A stretch of 64,000 bases of DNA from Ectocarpus siliculosus (lineage: Eukaryota > Sar > Phaeophyceae > Ectocarpales > Ectocarpaceae): the NCBI GenBank assembly GCA_000310025.1, contig FN649739.1, forward strand, positions 3,020,700 to 3,084,699, written 5' to 3'. This document shows positions 6,207 to 62,143 of the stretch, in pieces (the first letter of the stretch is position 1; every line of letters starts with the position of its first letter). The position numbers were made by a program, and so were the translations under genes. Below the pieces are notes generated by a model. It was given only the letters and a program-made list of their open reading frames with translations. It did no database searches and had not been told where the DNA came from.

Positions 6207-9200
6207 ATGCGACACCGCTCTCCGCGCTCGCGTTGGGCCCTGCTGATCATGAGGAGACAAAACTCTGTCGCGGTGACCGCGGCTCTGCTGCTGAATGCCT
6301 CGCCCGCGTTCTCGTTCAGCGCCCTACGGCATTCTGTCGGCAGATTATTGCCTCCACAGGCCTCGTTTTCAACATCGAACATACGGCAGCAGCAGCAGCC
6401 GCCGAGGATGATGGTGACCTCTGTGCCACAGGCGGACACTCCCGGCGTTGAGACGGCGACCGGCGGCACCAAGCCGGCGAGCCGGCGATTACACGTCCAG
6501 GTGTGTAAATGAATGCCCTGTGCGTCGCAAGAGGCCGTGGTTGTGTGCTGAGACCTACAGGACGAAGAGGTCAAAGGAGAAAAACGATGACGCGCCAAAA
6601 CGTACGCATACGCCTGTCTCAGATTCGGATGGATACATTGGATACATCATCCATTATCATGAGATAACATCATCCATTATCATGAGACGCTTTGCCTTTG
6701 CCACAACGCCAGACACCTGTTGCCGCTGGAGATCAATTTCAGGCCGCCAACAGCAGCAATTGCAGGGAATTGTGCTCGCGAAGCCAACACTGCTGCTGTG
6801 GATTCCTCTAGGAATACTATTTAGTGTAGTGTCCTTGCTGCATACCAGAGAGCTGCTGCTACAACATTTCTAGTCTACAACAGTACCTTCGACGTACAGT
6901 ATGTATTGTTGTTGTTGTTGTTGTTGTTATTGTTGTCTTCACATTAAAAACTGCTGTTCCGATCTCTCTCTACCCAGTACCTTCGTATGTCCGTACTGAT
7001 CCAACACTTGACGCGGTCGATTCCCGTGGTCACATTACCCGAAAAAGGTACGCTCAAACAAACTGACCCCGAGGGGTCCGCAAGTCAAAAGAAATCAACG
7101 ACAGATATTCTGGAGTCCTCCGCTCCCTCTGCGCGCTATGCGAGGTAACAACTGAGACTAGGAGTCAGCATCACGGGCCAGAGAGAAAGAGGTACACCCC
7201 CTTGGTTCAATCTTGGCTCTTCACACGCAAGCAGAGACAAGGCCATCTGACACAGAAAAAGAGAGAAAAAAGAGCGACAAAGAGAAAAAAGAGAACAAGA
7301 GAAAGAAATAAAAGGAAACAGGAAGAAAAGAGAAAAGAAAACGAAAAAGAAAACGAAAAATAAATAAAGCGAGAACAAAAGAGACCAGGCCGAAAATAAC
7401 AAGAAGTAAGAGGCAGAAGAAGGCACACGGTGGAGAGACCACTAGCGAACGAACAAGCAAACACGCAAACATGGCCACAAACCAGCGATACATGGTAATG
7501 GTACGTCATCACTAGTGGGGGTTTGGTGCAATGGTGAGCGTTGGGGGGGCGTACTCTCATGTTTTGCATGCCTTAGCGGTTAGACCATTGACCACGCGTC
7601 CTCGAGAGGACGGAGCATTGTTCCCACAGGACCGATCACCGATGACCAATCGTTCCTTCCTACTTTGCCAAAGGTGGCTCAAAAATGTCTTCCCTAGTCT
7701 ATCCTAACGATATCCCTTCCCGCCTTTTCAAACCACTTCCTACTCCCCAGTACAGCTACCGTCCTCTCCTCTCTATTCCATGCCTCAAACATCTCCCTGT
7801 ACGTCCCTTGTATTTTTCTCAGCTCAGTCATGTACACTTTCCTCTCCTCTTCGTACCACGGACATTCCGCGACTACATGAACACGGTCTTCGCATTCGAA
7901 GCCGCAATCACATTTGAACTTGTCGTCTTCGTCGTCTACCGTCCTATGTCTTCGCCGACGTTCTCGAAGGCCTATGTCCCCGGTCCTGAATTTGACCTTA
8001 AGCTTTGTCCCTGCATCCATTGGTCCATGTAGGTAATCCTTGAACCCTATTCCTTCTTTCAACATTCCGTACACGTCTAGACCCTCCTTATCCTTGGTTT
8101 ATTTCCTTAGATTCTGCTCTTCTCTCTCGGCACAAGCAACAGATACCTTCTCCTTGAACCCCTGTAGACCCTCCGTTTCCAGCGTTTCATCTTCGTCGAT
8201 GTCTATCCCCTTCCATACGTCCTCTACAACCTTGACCCATTCCGTGGGTTGTCTACCCCTCTTTTTGTTTGCCCACTTCGCCTCCCATACTATTCTCGGC
8301 AACCTCTCCTCTCCCATCCCGCACATGCGATACTGCTATGTTAGCTTCCTTGCGTCTCTTCCCGACCGCAGGGATTGGATCCCCAATTCTGCCCTTACGG
8401 CTGCATTTCTTGTGCGCTTGGAGCATCCTAGTATGATTTCGCTGCTTTCATCTGCGCCGCCTCGAGTTCTTTCACTACCTTCTTATTTCCTTCCCATACT
8501 TCTCCGGCGTACTTTAGCGGCGGTACGATTACGCTCTTCAAAACCGCCAATTTGATGCGTGTATCGAGGTGCCGGTTTGCGAGTATTGGGTGCAGCTTCC
8601 CTGCTCGTGCTTTGCCCTTTTCCGCTACCTTGGACATGTGTGCATTCCACGAGCAGTCGTTTGCGGTTTCTACTCCGAGGTATGTGTTCTGGTCCACTAC
8701 TGCAATCTCCTCGATCCCCCACTTCCATCTATGTTCTACTGGTTCCTCCCTGACCTCGTTGCACACCATGACGGCACTCTTCTTAAGGTTGGAAGACAAT
8801 CTCCATTTATCAGTAAGCTTCTTCGCCGCGTCAATTTGCAGTTGCAGTCCCTCAGGGGTGTCCGACATACCAACAAAATCATCCGCAAACAGCATTCCTG
8901 TCCCCTACTTTTACTCCCTTCCGGACTGCCTCTACGACTTCCAACAGATCGTTGATGAACACCTGGAACAATGTTGGGGACAGCGTGCAACCTTGTGGGA
9001 CCCCCTGCTCAATGTCGGAAGAACTTAGACAGTTCTCCGTCTAGCATGACCGCGCTTTTCGTACATTCTGTCATCTTCTTCAGCACTCTCCACATTTTCC
9101 CCTTGATCCCGTACTTGCACAATTGTTTCCACAGCCCATTTCTCCGTACGGTGTCGTATGCTTTTTCACGTCCAGGAAGAAGCAGTACGTCGGCTTTCCC

Positions 9201-12200
9201 GCCCTCTTTCTACCTTGGATGATTCTCCCTATCGTGAATGCGTGGTCTACGCACCCCCTCTTCTGTCGGAAACCTGCCTGGCCCTCACTAATGCTACGTT
9301 CCTTCTCCAATACTCCCACTATCCTATCGTTCAGCAACTTACAAAACACTTTTCCTACTGTATTCAACAGTGTGATACCCCTGTAGTTTCCTGGGTCAGT
9401 CTTGTCTCCTTTCTTAAACAAGTTCACAACCACTCCTTCCCTCCATCTACTTGGCGCATACTCGTTTTTCCACACCCAGTTGTACAGCTGTACCATCAAC
9501 TGGATCATCCCCTTTCCCCCCAAACTTCATGAACTCGTTGACTATCCCATCCGCCCCTGCTGCTTTGTGGCACTGCAACTTGTTCACACACGCCTCAACC
9601 TCGTCCTCAGTGAACTCCTTTTCTAGTTTCTTCGTTCCCAACGTCTGCCTTCGATGTCTCTTCTTCTTTCTGGGCCCATGCGTCCACCTCCTCCTTCTTA
9701 AACGCTTGGTTGGTCAAAAGCTTCATTCTCCGAAGGCACTCCAAGTCTCTTGTATGTCCTGCTAGAACTTCCCTTTTTCCCTTCCCACTGCTGACTAGTC
9801 CACCGTTCACACCTCGCAAAGTTGCTACCCCTGTATCCCCCCCTGCGCGGTCTGTTTTACCATGCCACTAATCCCTTCCCACATGTGCTTGGCGTTCCCC
9901 TCCAGGCCTCCGTTGGCCTTCTGCACTACTTTGTTGGGGGGGGGAATTGGCTAAAAGAAATTCAATCGTATCGTGCCACTCGGTCCGTCTCTTCTCGTTT
10001 GCTTTCTTCCCTCGCCGTCTCGTCCGTCTCCTGCCCCCCTCCCGCCCCATTGGTTGTTGGCTTGTGGTTTCGTTTGAGCGCTCGTTTTCGGCTGGCCTCT
10101 TCTTCCTTCTGGTGCCAGGAGGTCATGAACCTCTCAGCTCCCTGCAGCACCGCCGCATGCCAGGGTACTCCCCCCTCCACCTTCGCGGCTTCCGTCCACT
10201 TTAACATCGGTGCCGTGTCTTTCGATACCGGGATTCCGAGACAACATGGATCGGTTTGCGTAGATCCGTGGTCGGCCCCGAATGCCTTCAGGTCGTCGAG
10301 CACACACTTCGGCCAGTTCTGTTCCTGTCCCCCCCTACGTGGCTTCTTCCCCGCCGCCAATTCGCCGAGCATCAGTCGTTTCGGGAGTCGCCCATCCGGC
10401 TGCCTTGCCAGTGCTCCCGCGAACAGTAGGCGTCGTTGTCGGATCGTGGCTTCAACGCTCTGGCATTCGACCCTCTTCAGCGTCTGGGCGTAAGAGAGCT
10501 GCCGGTAGGTATCTTTCTTGCGCTTGTACCCGATAACTCGAAGGAGCAGTCGGTGGTGTGTCGACCGCAGCGTCTGATAGTGGCCGCTGAGTGGTGACCA
10601 TGTCATGCAACCGTACAGCAGTACCTCCATCGCCTCCGCCTGGAGGAGGCGGATCTTGAGTCGGAATGGCGCTTTCGGTCTGTCGAAGAGCTCCCAGCCA
10701 TATCGCCTGAGGCACGCCCACGCTCCTCTGCTCGTGTAGTTGATCTCTCGGGTGAGGTCGCCATGTTCGTTGACGAGGCCACCGAGGTACCGGAACTCGG
10801 TCGTCTGGGCGTATTTCTGTCCGGCGGCTTCGATGGTCAGCGGCGGAGGCGGGGGGGGCTGTGATGTTGTAGTCGGCTTGTCCTTCGCGCGCACCAGGAG
10901 AGTCTCCGCCTTCTTCTCCGATACCGTCAGCCCGAACTCCCCGAACACCTCAACGATGATGGTCATCATTATCGCCAGTCCTTCTGCAGACCTCGATACG
11001 ACGCCGGCATCATCGGCATATAGCATCCCCCATACTGCCCTCCGTCCTCGGTCAAGGGGTGTCTCCTCCGCCCCCCCCGCTTACGTCTTCCCCTCCTCCA
11101 AGCACACCAGGCTCCGCAGAACAACACCATCCTCGCTGAATCGGATAACGACGACCTCGAGGACCTCGGCGAAGAAGATGTTGAACAGCAGTGGGGATAG
11201 CACACATCCTTGTCGCACGCCCTGTGTCACGAAGATCCAGTCCGATAGTTCTCCGTCGTCCATGCGCACCCGGGCCCGCATTCCATCGTGGAATTGGCGG
11301 ATGACTTTGATCAGCTTCGCGGGAATCCCGGCCTTGGCCAGCACTTTCCATAGCATCTCTCGGTCCACCGAATCATACGCCTTCTTCAAGTCGACGAAGC
11401 ACATGTAGAGCGGTATTTTCTTCCTCCGCCCCAGCTCCTGGAGGCGGCGCACGACGAACAGCATGTCGACGGTGGGTCGCCCCGGTCGGAATCCGCACTG
11501 GGAGGATGTTGTTGGCTTCGCAGAAGGCGCTTAGACGGTTGGTGATGATCTTGATGGGGACCTTGCCTACGTGAGGTAGTAGCGAAATCCCCCTGTAGTT
11601 GGTACAGTTGGGCCGGTCACCCTTCCTTCTTGTACAGCACCTTGATGGTTGCATCCTTCCACTCTTGCGGAATATCTCCTCCGTTCCACACCTTTACGAG
11701 GATGGTATAGAGGTGCCCCAGGACGAAGGGTTCGTCGTCATCGATCTTGAGCAACTCGGCAGGGAGGGAGTCATGGCCGGGTGCCTTCCAGTTCTTGAGG
11801 CCTTTCGTTGCCCGTTTCACCTCCTCGAGTTTTGGCACCTCTCCCAACCGTTGAGTGTCACGTGTCGCTGGCCGCTGCGTCACTCGTTCGATGATGTCTG
11901 GGTTCAGGGTAGGGGATTTGGTGTTGAGCAGGGTGCTGAAGAATCTCGCCCACCGCTGGAGGATGTCGTCCCTGTTCCGGAGCAACACGCCGTTCTCATC
12001 CGCGACGAACTGCTGTCCCCCCGCTTGTCTCCCGCTGAGGCCCACTGATCTCTTGAGGTGTTGGTACAGTCCTCGCATGTCGCGTTCTTTGATAGATTGC
12101 TTCGAGTTCAGTCACATATCCGTCCAGGTGGGCATAAATGCCCGTTTCGACTGCTGTAGCCACTCCCTTACGCGCTGCTTTCAGAGCCCTCCACGTTGCT

Positions 12201-15200
12201 GAGTTCCAATTGCCCCTCATCGCTCGGCGCGCTTCCCGCCGTTTGGTAAGGGCCTCCTCCAGCACTGATCTCGTCTCTGGGGTCTCACGCCACTCCTGCG
12301 TGCGGCGTCTCCGCGGTTCCTCCCCTAGGGCCGTCCGCACTGCTTCGAGGAGAGCATTGGTAAAGTAGGTCGCCAATTCCGCGGCGGTGGTTGTTCGCTC
12401 GTCCAGTCGTGTGTCGAGGTTGAGGAGGAACCGGTTAGTCACCGCACACCGTGCTGCTTCGAACTGCAATTCCCGTTGGTTGAATTGTTGCTGTTTCGGT
12501 CTAGTCCGGACTGCACGGTTGTGGGCAAGCCTGCCACCGAGGTTGACGGTGTCTACTACCATGTTGTGGTCTGAGTCTGCTTTGACTGGGCGAACCGGCT
12601 GGGGGATGACAACCACGTTAGATACTCGGCCGTGATGTGCCTGCTTTGTCAGGATGTAGTCAAGGCGCTTGCAATCGGTTCCCGACACACCGTTGTATGT
12701 GTGCCATATTCCGCCCTTGCGTGTCTCGAAGAACGTGTTCGTGAGAGCTAGCCTGTTTTACGTTGCGAAGTTCAACAGTAGCATGCCATTGTCGTTGAGC
12801 TCATCACGCCCGTACATTCCTATTGCCCTTCCGTCCCCTCCGTCCAACCTATCTCCCGTCCGCGCATTGGCGCCCATTAGGACATACACACATTTTTTGG
12901 AAGGGATCCTCCGCACGAGACTGTCAAGTTTTCCCCAGAACACGCGCTTGCTGTCTGCGGTTGAAGGTTCGGTTGGAGCATACGCGGCTACGAAGTTGAC
13001 CGCTCCACGGTGGCCTGCCAACATAAACCTCATGGCTATAAGGCGTTCGTCAATAAACTCCGTAGTGAACGTGAATGTCTTGCACAGTGACTCTTTGACG
13101 GTTATCCCCACACCATGGGCTCAACCAGTCTCCGTGCCACAGCAGAACACCCGGAAACCCGCTGCTGCAAATTTCGTTCGACCTGCTCTCCGTGTCTCCT
13201 GCATTCCTACCACCGATACGTCTTGTCTCGCTGCCTCGTGTAGAATGCTGTAGGCTCGCCCGTATCCATTGGCCCCGTTTACAGCCAAAGTCCGCACATT
13301 CCAGGTTGCTACCCTAAGTATATACAAGCATGGATCCGTCTCTCCAGTCCCCAGTCCCAGTAGGCAACTTGGCTGTCAGGTTCAGAGCACTTGCTTGGTA
13401 CTTCGCGTTCCACCGTCCTGCCTGGTAAATGAGGATGATCTCTCCTTATGAGTTGGAGAGGTTTCCGGTACCCAACTGATCTGGTACTTTTCAGAACATC
13501 TTCATTCCCCACAGGCTCTAGACTAGGTATCGGTGAAGACAAGAAATTGGTTTTGGCAAAAAGTTGACGCTCAACAGCAGTAGGACTCTGGGATGCTACA
13601 TACTACGACGTAGGCTACGGTACTTTGAAGAAGGTCGTTGCGGGCGACGGTGGCAGTTGACAACCAGTGGTGTACACGCTAAATACGTGACTATTATTCT
13701 AGATCTGGATCTCGATCTGTAGAAAAGAGTCTACGATAGACTAACAATGAATCCATACCGTCGGCGGCGGCTACCTGCTTCCCCACGATTTCCCGAGCAG
13801 CACACAGCGATATCTCCCCTGTGGGTAACAGGCTCAACAAGACAGTTGGCAGCCATCTTTTTTTTTTATATTTTCTAAAAATCTGCTTCTTCTCCGTTGC
13901 GCCCTTGCGATAACTTGATGCATTAAGCCCGGTCTTCCATAGGCGTCGCCTGAGCTGCACTGCAAGGAGTTGAAGGCGTTCTCTTAAGAGGGCGTGTTTC
14001 CGGTGGGATGGCCCGTCTGTGCCTTTTGTCGTTTGTATTTTGCTGTTCTGAAAGCGTTCCTCCGTAACATTACCAGAGGTGTACTGCTGTTGCTTGAATA
14101 CTCAACAGCAAAGTACCACAGCTTGCCCCCCCCCNNNNNNNNNNNNNNNNNNNNNNNNNNNNNNNNNNNNNNNNNNNNNNNNNNNNNNNNNNNNNNNNNN
14201 NNNNNNNNNNNNNNNNNNNNNNNNNNNNNNNNNNNNNNNNNNNNNNNNNNNNNNNNNNNNNNNNNNNNNNNNNNNNNNNNNNNNNNNNNNNNNNNNNNNN
14301 NNNNNNNNNNNNNNNNNNNNNNNNNNNNNNNNNNNNNNNNNNNNNNNNNNNNNNNNNNNNNNNNNNNNNNNNNCCCCCCCCCCCCCCCCCGCACCTCCCT
14401 CCCTCTCTCGTCCTTTTTCTCCACCTCTCCGTACTCTTTTTCTTGACTCCTTTCCAAACATGGACAAACGACGACGACGACTACAACAACCGACCATCAC
14501 CATCACCACCGTAACTGTCCCGATTAAACCTCAGCTCGGAGACTCGTTTTACGACTTGACCGGCTGGCGAAAGCTCCATCCATCGGGGGAGCACTGGATC
14601 GATCGCTTCGCGGTAAGAGACACGAGAGACATTCCAGGTGGACGATGGAAACTCCCCCCGTTTTCCTCGCCGCGTACGCAATAATTTCGCGCTCATGTCC
14701 CTTCCCAGTTTTTGCGGGGCGCGAGTGTGCTGGCCACCTGATAGTTTTCTCAAGCATTATTTCGTGTAGTTGATGGTGTTTCGAGGTCGTGGTTGTACGC
14801 GTGTTAAGGAAAGCATGGGACGGTTCGTTCTCTTTTCTTGCCCGTGAGAAGGGATGAGGGGAGAGAGTATGGGCCACGGGAGAATAGTGTTCGACAAACA
14901 ACCGTATTCGTCCGCCCATCGATCGCTTCTGTGTGCATGCGTATTGGTAGCGGGATGCAATCGCTTAGAAAACTCTACCTCTCGTTACAGTTCAAAGAGC
15001 GCCACATTTCCATGCTGCATTTTTTCCTGTTACAACAGTAGTGGCGAATCGCGGCATCCCGCCGCCGAGAACTTAAGTTTATAATTTTTGGACACCCGCA
15101 AGGATGCAATCATCGGCGGTGTATGTTGGAAGCCGACAATAGATATGCTCTCGTTTTCGTGAGCATTTACATATTCGGACGAACAACGAGGTCGACAAGG

Positions 15201-24004: not shown

Positions 24005-27000
24005 CTACGAGTAGCACACGTCTCCTTCTTCGTAGTACACGGTGCCGCAGCCCGTGTCCGCGGCGTTGTCGAACGTGACCTTCCCCACGCCCGTGAGCCT
24101 TCCCCCCTCCATGACGAACATGATGGGCTCGGGGTAGTCGGAACCGTCGCCGTTGAAGACGGACCCCTCCGACAGCCTCGTGTATCCGCTGCTCCCGACA
24201 ACGAAGGTCGGGGCGCGGCACTCGACGACCTCGGCGGGGCCGGACAGCTTGAAGTAGCCCGCGTTGAAGACGGCCCCGCCGATGCCGTCGAAGGACAGGC
24301 AGTCGATGAAGTCGGCGGTGGCCCCCTTCTTGAACCTGAACTCCGCCCCAGAGCCGTTGAAGATGGCCCCTCCGGCCTCCGCCCGCAGGTTCTGGAACAC
24401 GGCGTTTCCCTTGATGTTGACCTGTGTTTGTTTGTTTTTTCGCGGCGAAACGGTGAAGGCGTCGTCCTTGTTCAGGTGTGGTGTGCCATCATGAAATGTC
24501 ATCAGGGTGAACAATCGAAGCTATTATAATACCCTCGGAGCGGGCGTGCACATGCTTCCGCACGAAAACAAACTTGCTGCAAATGAAGGCATGAGCCGCG
24601 CAAGAATTATCTTGTGTGACCCCGCCCGCCGAGGTCTTCACAGCAAGAGAGAGGCCAGCCGCGGATGATAAGTCTCGATGGGCAGAGCCAAAATGAGGCG
24701 CTGAAACTGCATGGGATAACGGACAAGTTTAACAAAACGAAACAAGCCGCGAAGACGGACATGAAGATCAACAACACCACCATTCTGGTTGTACACCACA
24801 CACCCACACACCCACCCCGTTCTCGGTCTCTCTCTGTCTCTTCTGTTTCTCTGTCAATATCTATCTGTGTATGTTTCCATCTGTCTGTCTGTGCGTCTCT
24901 CTAGATCTCCGGCTGTCTCTCTCCTTTTGTCTGTCTGTCTGTCTGCAGTTTCTCCCTCTCCCTTCGCTCTGCCGCCGACCAAAAAAACACTCCACACCTT
25001 GCCGAGGTTGTAGATCCCCCCTCCGTTGTTACCCTCGTCGTCGATGATGGACACGTCTTGCATCGTCACCTCTCCCGCGAACAGCACGGACCCGGTCTCC
25101 CCGACGTACATCACGCCGCCGGGCCCCGGCGAGCTCTCCCCTCCGCCCGAGTTTTCGCAGCCGACGAAGGAGGCGTGTCCCTCCACACGGAAGTAACCGT
25201 CCACGTATACGCACCTGTTTCGAGGTTGGTTGCGGGGAGATTGTTGGTGGTTTTGCCGGGCACGTCCGTCTGTGGGGAAAATCGAAAATGGTGCATTGCT
25301 GCGAGAGTCCATATGGGATAGAGTAACAGCCATTGCTGCGTTCTCGACATAAGAAGAGCGGATACTGCGCCCCCACCTTGGGAACCTAAGAAAACGCGAA
25401 CAACACACGCTATTAATCTTTTATGCCCCACCGGCGGGGTATTTGTTTTGGTCAAATTCTATACCACCTCAGCAGTGTGATGTCTGAATCGTCAAATTTG
25501 TCCAATAAAAGAAGGGTACCAAGAGGAGGCGAGCGATACGAAGGAAAGAACACTGTGGGCACCGCAAGATATGCGTATACTTCGAAGTATACAGTAGGCA
25601 ACTGCGGTCGACGAGACGGTTTCGATCTAGACTAATCGTCGCCAGACACGAGAATACGGCGGCACGCGGATTGGACATCACCATCACCATCACCATCACC
25701 AGACAAGAGAAGACGACGTCACGCGGGGCGACCCATCTATGAATGGTACACCCATAATGGCACAACACCATGGGATAGAACGAAACACGCAAGGGAAACC
25801 GGGTAGAACAAAAAAAGAACAAGGGAGGTAAGCATACAACAAAGGAGGAGGAGGCACGCACGCACGCACGCACCCTCCGATGAGTTGGTAGCTGGCGAAG
25901 TCGGAGCCTTCCTCAGGCACGCTTCGCACTCCCACCTCGGACGTGGTAAGGGTGTCGTAGAACCGGGCCGATGAGCCTTCTCCAACGTACACCTGTAGAT
26001 CGTTAGTGTGTTGGGAAGGGTATCAGTATTCGAAAAGTCTTGCGAGGGCAAGCATAATGCAGTGTTGTTGGTGGGACACTACTACTACCCACTGCCCGTG
26101 TCCGACCTCCCGAAAGCTCGCCTTCACAACGTCTTCGGATGCCAAGCATGAGGCAGCGCTGCTGATTGGACACCTATGGTGTGCCCAGTACCTCGGAAAT
26201 TCGCCTTCACAATGTCTTAGGAGGGCAAGCATGAGGCAATGTTTCCTCATTGGGCACTACTACTGACTGCCCTGGGGTCCGAAAATAAAAAAAATCGCCT
26301 TCACAATGTCTTAGGAGGGCGAGCATGAGAAAGTGTTGCTGATCGGGCTCTGCTAACGACTCTGCCTGTGATATATCGAAAATTCGCCCATCGCCACAAA
26401 AAAAAAGGCAGCAGTGTTCTCGTTGTTACTGCCGGTGTTTTTTTCTCAAAATTCGTCCATCAATACATGTAGAAAGAAGACGTCAATCTTATCCTAAACA
26501 ATTATTATCTAGATGGATTTATTGCTCAATTACCCAACAAACACAACCAACACGTGGCGAAACTGAACCTGCTCGCGCGGTGCACCTTACACACGAAGAC
26601 AGACGGCCAACACTAAAATCAAGACGGAAAAAAAAATCAACTCACCGCACCGCCGTTGACGTCTTGGTACTCAGTCCCGGTGAACGAGGCCCCCGGGTAC
26701 CACAAGAGCTTCGCTCCGTCGGTGACCTCGAAGCGGACCTCGTTGAGGCCGACGCTGCCGGACTGTCCGTCGGGGGTCATCACCGTCAGGCTGTTCGCCG
26801 ACATGCTCATGGTCGTGAAGCTGTCGCAGGTGATGTCCTGGCCGGGCTGGATCTCCACCACCACGTCCTGCGCGCAAGACACCGAGGCGTGTGTGTTATT
26901 AGAAAGTATGCGAAACTTCAAAAGATAGGCTGGCCGTTCTTGTTGGAATGGTTCGAGGTTGTTGTCGTGGCCGGCGGAATCTACACGGTACGGTACGTGG

Positions 27001-57640: not shown

Positions 57641-57718
57641 CACAATCCCTGGACCTGTCCGGCAGCCCCCTCTCCAGGATTCCCTAGGCCGGTCGTGCAC
57701 CCCCCTCATCCCCAGGGT

Positions 57719-60700
57719 TTACTGGTCCTGTCCGTCCCCCGCACCCCCCCTACCCCCTTGGTGTTGCTGGCCTTGTCCGTCCCCCGCATTCCCCCCACCC
57801 CCTTGGTTTTGATGGTCTTTTCCCCGGTCCTGGTTACGTCTCATGAACCCGCATACCCCACCAAGTATCATCACCAACACGCTCCCAACGACGGTGACAG
57901 CCACTTCCCAAGCTCTGTCTAGCCACTGTGAGTCGTCCGAAGAATCCTCGAAAGGGGCAGGCGTCGGGAAAGATATACCTGCAAGGTGGAGGGATAATAG
58001 TTCTGTACGTGGCCGGGCTCAATAGCTTGACAATTTTGTCAAGACTATGCTAAGGGCGCAAAAAAAATTGTTCTTCCGTACATATGATACGATACAACCA
58101 CCCACTCCGCTTTTACTATTTCGGAGATTATCAGCGGGGGGAAGCCGATCCCCCCAAAAACAGAGTCATATGCTATACGAGATTTATGGCATCAAAAACA
58201 TGCGGATACCTACAGAGGAATCGTTGCGCATCCGCGTGCCCCCGATTGTGGCGCTCTCTGCACTCTGTGTTCCACCCAATGGCGGGAGTGGGGAGCACGA
58301 CGAGTGTGGGGCGAAGGCCTACGCAACTCGCCGTGCCGCTGGAGCTTGGGGGATATTGACTCCAACACTTTGAGGCTCAAAGTCATCCATGACGTCACGG
58401 AGGAAGAGGAGTGGAACGCTGCGATATCGCCCTAAGAGTCGGTGGGCGTTTCACGGAACAGAACCAATATTCAACATTGTCGGGGCTAGGCGGAGGTAGA
58501 GGAGGGCCTCCAGAGGCACGCCCAAGAGGATGATTGTGCGGAGTTGATTTGGAGGTAGGTGCGGTGTTTTCGTCGAAATTTTCACCGAACAGAACAATCA
58601 CAGTACGTAGTATCCGGCGTGTCATTACGTCCGATCGCAAGCTCCCACGCTGTTTTGCGGAATGCATTGGACATTTGGGTTCTTTGTTGACGTGATAATG
58701 ATTGTGTTATTTCTCTGAAAATTCCAGCGTCTACAAAATTGCTTATTTTGTTGTCTCCATGGGTTTATCTGTACGTCAGGTCAAACGGGTTTGATGTGCA
58801 CCACGATGCACTGAGAACTTGGAAAGAGATCGAAACACCTAACCCAAAGTCAGTCATCCGGGGGGCGACTAGGTGTGCGGGAGAGCATTCGTGGCCATTT
58901 TTTTCTCGTCTTGGGTACTATCTTGGTGGACTTGCGTTCTCGATCTACTGTAGACCACGCAACGGCACACAATGTCGTATGTCCCTTTGAAAATCGGCTT
59001 CGACTTGCCGACGATTCACAACTTCAAACGCAAAATACCAATAAACCCCATCCGGGCGGTTCGGGCATCACAACACGCAGTGTGGAGATAGAGGCACAAG
59101 GGATCCCAGTAGTCTACTGGTAGACGCTTTCGTGGTGGAAGGAAGGCCGCACAGCTGCGTTCCAACACTGCTACGGACACTTTGGGTTTACACGTATGAG
59201 GCCTGGTCCTCACATCTATGCATTATTTTGGCCAGGTGGTTGAAAGACAGACGTACGTGGTGTCATGCACCATCACCTGGTTTTGCGAAAAGAGCGAAAG
59301 AAAAGACATTCTACGTGCTTACCATTGTACTGGACGTTTCGGAAGATGGTCGAGTCGGTCGTGTTCGTGGTCCCACCACTCAAGAGGAATGCGTTGAAGG
59401 TGACTTGTTCGGTGCACCTGTTGCGTAGCCAGTTGAACGATTGTATTACTCATTGTTCCCCAACGTACACGGGTTTGGAGATGATGACACTGTACATCTA
59501 CAAGGAGACTTTGGGAGAAAGACCCGATATCTCCTGCAAGAACCTGTCTCGCGAGGAGCAAAAACAGTTCGTCAATGTGTACGCTGACCACATTGGTTTT
59601 CGTCGTCCAACTGGATTAAACATGCGCAGGATGCTACAAGCGAAACCACTACATAACGTTCCCAATTCTCGAGAATAAGGACGGAACACACGAAACGGAA
59701 GCAGAGCGGACGGGAGAACAAGAAAAGGCAAGTCTGTCTTCCACTCTCACCACGTATCGTCGTATTCCAGCCTCACTGCGACAGGATTGAAGTCCAACGA
59801 AATCTGTTGTTCACTCCACCCACCATCCACGTTAGTCATTTCAAACGTAGTCACCACTTCCTCGCCCGACGTTCCATCGCAATCACCATTCGAGCAGAAG
59901 TAGACGAGAGCCACAGACGAGCTGGTTCCGGAACAAGCCTTGACCCGGAAGTCGTAGCTGTAGTCACCTACGGAATGCGGGGTGGAACCCGTGGGTTGTT
60001 ATCGGTGCTAGCAGACTCTCCAATACATGGTTCACACGGATTTGATGCGAGATGGTTGAAGAGTCGAGACCAGGTGTTGGATAGACTCGGAGCACATATT
60101 GTGACAAGCCAGAGCACTCGATGCGGAGCCACAGGCTGACGCGAGAGCACATCAAAAATGCAGGGTGTCGGCATTTGAGACCGGTGGCTACTGTAACTGG
60201 AGAGGGGGAACGGTTTCTGGTCGTTGTCCGCAGGGTCCACTGAGGCATATCTAACCCCCGTACGGTTCGGTAGAATTGAGCACCGCATTGTGGCAGCGGT
60301 TTACTGTAGAGGTATTGATCTGCGGCATCGGATATCTTTATGCAACCGCTCGAATGGCTTCCTTTTGGGCCCAAAAGCTGACTATAATACGACGCGACCA
60401 ACAAATATTGTCGGCCCCCCACTCACTCGATCCGTCGATGTTGAAGAAGCGCCATGTGCTTTGGCAGGGAATCGTTTCGTCACTATAAAAGTGACCATCG
60501 ACACAGCCCTTTTCACCGGTTTGATTGTCCATCCAGATTGCCCCGTCTTCCCCTAGCAAGTTTTCCCCGTCTTCCCAAGTCACCGCGGCGATACACCTGG
60601 AAAATGAATTGAGTCGTATGTCATCCCCAAGCTGGCAAGTTGAGGCCGTTCTCATTCAACGACTGACAGAAAATTTGCACAAGCGTTGTCCTTGTCCCTG

Positions 60701-62143
60701 AGGCCCCGACGCTACCTTAACAGTATTTCGCGACGCCGTTTCCCTTGCCGACAAATGGCGGCTAGAGGGAGAAGCTAACCAGATAGTCTATATAGACGGA
60801 GCTTCATTTGTGTCCATGGAACGAGAAACAGCGGCTGCAAGCTTCGCAAGCTTCGCAAGCTTCGCAAGCTTCGCAAGCTTCGCAAGCTTCGCAAGCTTTA
60901 GGCACACACAGGAGAGGTGCGGAGAGACAAATTCGAGCATGACAAACCTACGTACTGTAGGAGCATCTACCAAGAGCGGGTGCCTTGGCGGGGAATGAAC
61001 ACGGGACGACATGCAGAAGGCGTTCGGTGTTCAAGAACTGTAAAACGAGAGATCTATACGTAACAGCAGTACATTGTAGAGACGTGGGGGAATTCTCGTC
61101 AATTGCAATTCGTGGTCAGGCGTACAGTACAAACGACACCAGCCTTAAACTCAGTCTGTCGTTATTCGACCCCCCTGGGCAAGTCAATTACAGTAGTTGG
61201 CCGCATTTCGGGCACGAGAAGCGGGGAAGTTGTGTCCCTGAAACATACGCCGCCTTTATGTTCTGAATAGCGAGCTGTGCGACATGCGTTGGAAACCGGC
61301 GGTAATTGAGAGAAAACCAAGCCTTACGGCCTACATCCGCTCCAGCAACATCTGGGTTGGCCTCACCATGCGTCCCCATCACCCTGAATGGAGAAATCAA
61401 CTGTCGTCGGCAAGAAGCCGAGAGTAACAACGGCGATTTCAATCGTTGAACCGTCCGTGTCGATGTCAGTGCTTGTGGGTAGTAGCAAAACACCGTCCTC
61501 CGAATTGCAGTAACTCCCTCCTTGGCAAAAACTGAAATAGATTTCGTCTTCGTCTGTTCCGCCGTTAGTCACATTGCAGCTTGTGACGTACAGTGTGTAG
61601 GCGCATGCTTTGCCTGCATCGCATGAAGGAGCGCGCGTCGCGAAAATGATTTTGACTGGAAACAACGGAGTCACCAAAGGTCTGTATCACGCACGAGAAG
61701 AACCAGTTCGTTGGGCGCGTGGGCCACGACATCAGAATCTGCCGCGCGTCTCATCCACTGATCCCACCGCCCGCACCGGCACCGGCACCGACAGGTTTCA
61801 GGGGGTGGGGATTCGTACAATGAGTGGTTGTTAGCTTGACGAATTCTTCCGGCGAAGACCGACTCGGTTAGCCTAGACCAAGTCGCCAGAAATGGAAAGT
61901 TTTGTTGTCGTAGACTGACAACCTGTTCGATTTTCTGGGATCTCGAGGGAAAAGAAGACATTCAAAGGCGCGTTCTCACCCTGCTACCTCGCTGCTCCAA
62001 CAGCAAGAGTTTGGATCCAAGGGTCATGTGTTGTATCATGTGCGTCACAAACATCGTGCGGCTTACCACACGCCAAGTAGCTGGAACTCACCGGAAAGGC
62101 CAACTGCAGCCACCGCTAACAGCTCCAACGCAGCGGTCTTCAT
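57719..62143 (-). CDS. Type I membrane protein with duplicated two-exon extracellular modules
   Basis: Minus-strand exons: 62092-62143 (ATG at 62143, signal peptide), 61367-61655, 60427-60596, 59751-59967 and terminal 57719-57978 (stop TAA). Phases from exon 1 to exon 4 are 1, 2, 1, 2 and match at every join. Exon 2 encodes a Cys-bearing beta-rich domain (CDAGKACAYTLYVTSC, FCQGGSYC, FLPTTVDFSIQGDGDAW). Exon 4 encodes a diverged copy (DYSYDFRVKACSGTSSS, YFCSNGDC, VAVRLEYDDTW). Exon 3 is a linker with IWMDNQTGEKGCVDGHFYS. The last exon has an acidic Pro stalk, one transmembrane helix (VAVTVVGSVLVMILGGVCGF), basic residues, and a Gly/Gln-rich tail (GDGQGQ). At least one exon between 57979 and 59750, expected to repeat exon 3, was not found. 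No known family was recognised. A receptor or adhesion role is inferred from topology. Confidence 0.7.
59130..59690 (+). other. Coding-like sequence inside an intron, antisense
   Basis: Two overlapping plus-strand frames (59132-59428 and 59265-59678) look protein-like (FYVLTIVLDVSEDG; SREEQKQFVNVYADH) and share the direction opposite to the host gene. Neither has a domain or consistent continuation. It may be a transposon remnant in the large intron that should also hold the missing exon. Confidence 0.25.
60837..60900. repeat. 9-bp minisatellite (CTTCGCAAG)n
   Basis: Seven exact copies of the nonamer, in the intron between exons 2 and 3 of the membrane-protein gene. The in-frame Ser-Phe-Ala repeat is incidental. 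Confidence 0.97.

Follow-up and report, generated by a model that had tools for sequence, protein, structure and literature searches.

What kind of protein is encoded on the minus strand between positions 62143 and 57719 of the window analysed here, a 64-kb stretch of contig C14 of the brown alga Ectocarpus siliculosus (own genome, 189 Mb in 492 contigs)? From the sequence we assembled a complete gene of six exons with a 360-residue product, and found a second copy on contig C18 (4.4296-4.4361 Mb) with nine exons and 569 residues. The explanation we favour, with some reserve, is that the two genes represent a small family of type I single-pass membrane proteins carrying two tandem PLAT-like ectodomains, which probably bind a ligand.

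Gene structure, probable module duplication and predicted membrane topology

All five introns of the window gene are GT-AG, and their phases run 1,2,1,2,1, completing the 1-2-1-2 series described in a first-pass annotation of this DNA; the exon missing from that description was located as exon 5 (Table 1). The locus makes a convincing intact protein-coding gene, and its exon structure, reading frame, paralogue, conserved introns and single predicted transmembrane helix can be read from the DNA directly. Of the residues aligned between the window protein and the paralogue, 135 of 348 are identical, and four of the five window introns share both alignment column and phase with the paralogue. In both proteins a hydrophobic N-terminus is followed by two modules and a single transmembrane helix.

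The ectodomain would consist of one module present twice, each copy spanning two exons, with a phase-1 intron on either side. In an hhalign comparison of module 1 with module 2, none of 300 decoys scored as well; the homology is supported by exon 2 versus exon 4, while exon 3 versus exon 5 alone gave no significant similarity. The two modules look homologous, weakly, and the module repeat is fairly well supported by sequence: flanking phases are equal, the internal intron is common to both and the sequences appear homologous, the pattern of a symmetric 1-1 duplicated module. The common pattern begins with a Y-x-V strand and a G-T/S turn, continues through a C-x(n)-C hairpin to a W-C strand and closes with F-x-N, with a Cys directly after the Trp in all four modules of the two genes. 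The proposal that exons 2 and 4 encode homologous Cys-containing domains with a TG/G-split Trp was borne out, at weak similarity.

The transmembrane helix has the highest 19-residue hydropathy of the window protein (2.35), and the paralogue's maximum (2.04; EVITAVLVFTATVAVTSVV, then RR) lies at the matching place, so that hydropathy places one helix C-terminal to the ectodomain, followed by basic residues, in both proteins. The next internal hydrophobic stretch (residues 89-107, 1.54) falls in a predicted β-strand region. Near the N-terminus, the 19-residue hydropathy reaches 2.1 at residues 5-23, in a stretch that continues from exon 1 into exon 2, and 10-residue peaks of 2.44 (window gene) and 2.62 (paralogue) were observed; by hydropathy, this stretch is a candidate signal peptide. 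The predicted outer part carries N-glycosylation sequons at N45, N138 and N261, one of them at a site common to the paralogue. If expressed, the protein would enter the secretory path and be anchored by its one helix with the two modules outside, in line with the type I cell-surface architecture proposed at first pass. A DUF5056 match to the transmembrane exon (E 0.002 and 0.0093, both below the cut-off) spans the linker and the helix and was rejected as a hydrophobic match.

Hydropathy and translation also confirmed that the terminal exon holds one transmembrane helix and a Gly/Gln-rich tail. This tail is encoded by a 45-bp tandem repeat that extends beyond the stop codon; because this minisatellite unit is a multiple of three and continues past the stop, tail length may differ among strains. 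The paralogue lacks the Gly/Gln tail and has instead a longer, partly acidic one; this difference speaks against the tails having kept a common function. No Pfam domain was found above cut-off in either tail, and signalling, if any, would therefore need partners.

Table 1 Features of the window gene (window positions).
Feature	Position	Strand	Description
Exon 1	62092..62143	-	Start ATG; hydrophobic signal-peptide-like N-terminus MKTAALELLAVAAVGLS; GT donor read directly; phase 1 end
Exon 2	61367..61655	-	Module 1, first half; TG/G-split Trp at end, phase 2
Exon 3	60427..60596	-	Module 1, second half (CIAAVTW...PCQSTWRFFNI); phase 1 end
Exon 4	59751..59967	-	Module 2, first half; TG/G-split Trp at end, phase 2
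Exon 5	59323..59417	-	Module 2, second half; shorter than exon 3; phase 1 end
Exon 6	57719..57978	-	Acidic linker, single transmembrane helix, basic residues, Gly/Gln-rich tail, stop codon
Transmembrane helix VAVTVVGSVLVMILGGVCG	57848..57904	-	Residues 300-318; RR two residues later; position checked by translation
45-bp tandem repeat	57697..57823		2.8 copies; Tandem Repeats Finder score 152

Intron 2 of the gene also holds a 9-bp tandem repeat, GCAAGCTTC, in 6.9 perfect copies (window 60837-60898).

Affinity of the repeated module

Pfam, NCBIfam and PHROGs contained no significant match to the module, a sequence search of the PDB returned MreB only (E 1.1) and a profile search of the PDB found nothing, in agreement with the first-pass view, which recognised no named domain in the repeated unit. 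Weak matches to SMP_MUG190-like, lipo_BPSL1445, NxxGxxAF and five PHROGs concerned one module each and were rejected. ATS3 (PF06232) gave no match at E≤10 in the exon frames, the whole protein or the modules.

The module pattern is reminiscent of PLAT/LH2 and its plant ATS3 branch, and we tested this likeness against six PLAT sequences: four lipoxygenases from PDB searches and two plant sequences checked against Pfam. Using hhalign, the four-module profile aligned to the six with Prob 29 and a pairwise E of 6e-4, over 83 columns collinear end to end, with 0 of 200 decoys as good; in the identical set-up, the ATS3 sequence scored Prob 39 against the lipoxygenases and PLAT1 Prob 96. In a smaller test with six combinations, 0 to 5 of 100 decoys were as good, depending on the combination. 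Against single sequences, the four-module profile ranked all six PLATs (12.6-20.2) above all eight other proteins (7.4-11.8). Module 1 alone gave Prob 25, with 0 of 200 decoys as good. In the fold comparison, the exon 4 model was similar to parts of lipases and lipoxygenases that we take to be the PLAT domains of those enzymes; the best Foldseek E values were 0.23 for exon 2, whose model is of low confidence, and 0.36 for exon 4. Taken together, the profile comparison (mainly through module 1) and the fold comparison (mainly through exon 4) lean tentatively towards a PLAT/LH2-like β-sandwich, and each module would most likely be a divergent, Cys-containing version of it.

Several results weigh against this assignment. 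PLAT (PF01477) gave no match at E≤10 in the frames of exons 2, 3, 4 and 6, in the whole protein, in three joined modules or in any of the four modules, nor at E≤1 in the whole paralogue; we therefore name the module PLAT-like rather than a family member. The module 1 score is only narrowly above the best decoy (26.27 versus 26.07), and module 2 alone produced no signal, with 20 of 200 decoys as good against PLAT and 66 of 200 against the plant pair. Galectin-1 (16.65), one of the eight non-PLAT controls, outscored three of the six PLATs with the module-1 profile. Among the 50 rows listed in each Foldseek search (exon 2; exon 4), no lipoxygenase or pancreatic lipase appeared by title.

The strongest competitor leaves gene and architecture unchanged and makes the module a lineage-specific β-sandwich of Ig-like, CBM-like or C2-like type with no relationship to PLAT; it might, for instance, bind wall glycans. 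We regard this as possible, at roughly one chance in three: it agrees with the absence of a significant sequence-level database match and with the best fold rows being other β-sandwiches, among them transglutaminase barrels, GH2-type domains and carbohydrate-binding modules, but PLAT enzymes are also in the fold list, and PLAT came out top with the four-module profile among the six PLAT and eight other proteins compared, a control set in which β-sandwich families are few.

Comparison with the PLAT/LH2 domains of lipoxygenases, pancreatic lipases and polycystin-1 illustrates both sides. Like them, the modules are all-β (by prediction), and the first Y-x-V strand, the following G-T/S turn and the late Trp-containing strand align collinearly; unlike them, the modules do not match the Pfam PLAT model, contain Cys and form a tandem pair before a transmembrane helix, without an enzyme domain. 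The N-terminal C-x-Y-x-V of the ATS3 and PLAT-plant-stress proteins of plants (PF06232; PLAT1 and PLAFP in Arabidopsis; Pfam-checked sequences) is also similar to that of the modules. Those proteins are small, PLAT-only and single-domain, without a transmembrane helix, whereas the window protein has two modules and a helix. Polycystin-1 and sea urchin REJ are membrane proteins with a PLAT domain, single and cytoplasmic; here, two PLAT-like modules precede the single transmembrane helix. The family probably carries a diverged form of a known domain, placed in an architecture that is out of the ordinary.

Origin and extent of the family

The two module copies would have arisen by tandem duplication, preceding the gene duplication that gave the C18 paralogue. 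The first-pass annotation had attributed the module duplication to exon shuffling; of this, the data support tandem duplication only. That shuffling spread the module through a receptor family, a view that would suit either fold, appears improbable: the phase-1 borders are symmetric on both modules and both have the internal phase-2 intron, but the two genes found have the same two-module order, and own-genome searches recognised no further module-bearing gene, although BLAST-like searches miss distant copies. A decaying or unexpressed relic with remnant open exons is harder still to credit, since its supporting points, a simple-repeat tail and an exon 1 sequence not conserved relative to the paralogue's, are opposed by six open exons out of six with intact splice borders, by codon differences over 348 codons that are commonest at third positions (226, versus 173 and 153 at the others) and by 79 of the 135 identical residues being encoded by different codons.

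Sequence evidence points to a real, small family, with two genes recognised in this genome. Own-genome sensitivity was limited: module-1 queries recovered module 1, while module-2 queries of either gene missed module 2 of the other. Besides the paralogue, 27 rows (best E 0.003) all overlap Gly-rich residues 69-84 and were set aside unread as composition matches, four of them extending to the Trp-Cys motif; two further matches (L015 and L016, E 1.2 and 3.1), inspected as open frames, were dismissed as chance. Searching the genome for the PLAT and ATS3 families (ATS3 exon-wise) gave no match, in a set-up that detected PLAT in none of 14 controls and ATS3 in a single control genome, below cut-off, and a plant PLAT1 query gave one match (E 4.4), in a gene resembling a leucine-rich repeat (LRR) gene. 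No pattern stretch was confirmed among the 11 and 41 in viral contigs or the 106 in genome contigs, collections of viruses and prokaryotes in which absence says little on other brown algae, and a coral lipoxygenase PLAT query found no match in plasmids. In the open-licence PMC literature (brown-algal PLAT, receptors and exon shuffling; ATS3/PLAT; PLAT with stramenopiles or LH2; tandem PLAT; EsV-1-7), no title among those listed describes this protein family; the titles on brown-algal PLAT deal with lipoxygenases or inhibitors, and a study on ROCO genes (PMC11378527), under brown-algal exon shuffling, reportedly concerns another family.

Other features were observed in the window and the genome. 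Reverse-transcriptase (RVT_1) fragments lie on the minus strand of window 8428-12757 (69 bits at 11081-11530; below cut-off at 9962-11080 and 8428-8904), adjoining a weak endonuclease/phosphatase-like frame at 11996-12757 on the same strand; the region is probably the remains of non-LTR-type elements. A 171-residue open frame at 24005-24520, minus strand, has no Pfam match at E≤1. Around position 158460 of contig C55 (L041), several short LRR-like stretches (LPEGIFGGLTAL...) are separated by intron-like sequences that resemble one another; this may be a gene with one exon per LRR. EsV-1-7 (PF19114) content is very large across many contigs, often with many repeats per frame (e.g. L037 and L038); 150 of 150 scored candidates matched, from 880 first-look candidates in this genome. 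This content marks the genome as that of a brown alga, the family being described as expanded in brown algae (PMC7457493).

Implications for brown-algal cell surfaces

PLAT domains are thought to bind lipid or protein partners, and the two modules may bind an extracellular ligand, whether a membrane lipid, a wall component or a protein partner. Pfam identified no LRR, kinase or integrin-type domain in the window protein or its paralogue. Since known signalling domains, kinases included, were looked for and not found, an adhesion or co-receptor role, or signalling through a partner, would be expected. In brown algae, LRR receptor kinases and α-integrin-like proteins have been put forward as candidates for the cell surface (PMC8307928); the window protein is likewise a candidate cell-surface protein. 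Brown-algal lipoxygenases are described in one account as single-domain, without the N-terminal β-barrel (PMC5712309), and no lipoxygenase sequence turned up in this analysis.

Complex multicellularity arose independently in brown algae. A speculative extension, which we hold to be rather unlikely, is that brown algae have a class of surface receptors or adhesion proteins, represented by these genes, in which PLAT-derived domains stand in tandem outside the cell, a lipid-binding accessory having become a duplicated recognition module during the independent rise of multicellularity. The two-gene family, with its duplicated ectodomain and one transmembrane helix, offers a concrete candidate for knock-out, and, if the PLAT-like assignment is true, it would add an extracellular use of PLAT to a lineage in which the lipoxygenases are described as lacking this domain.
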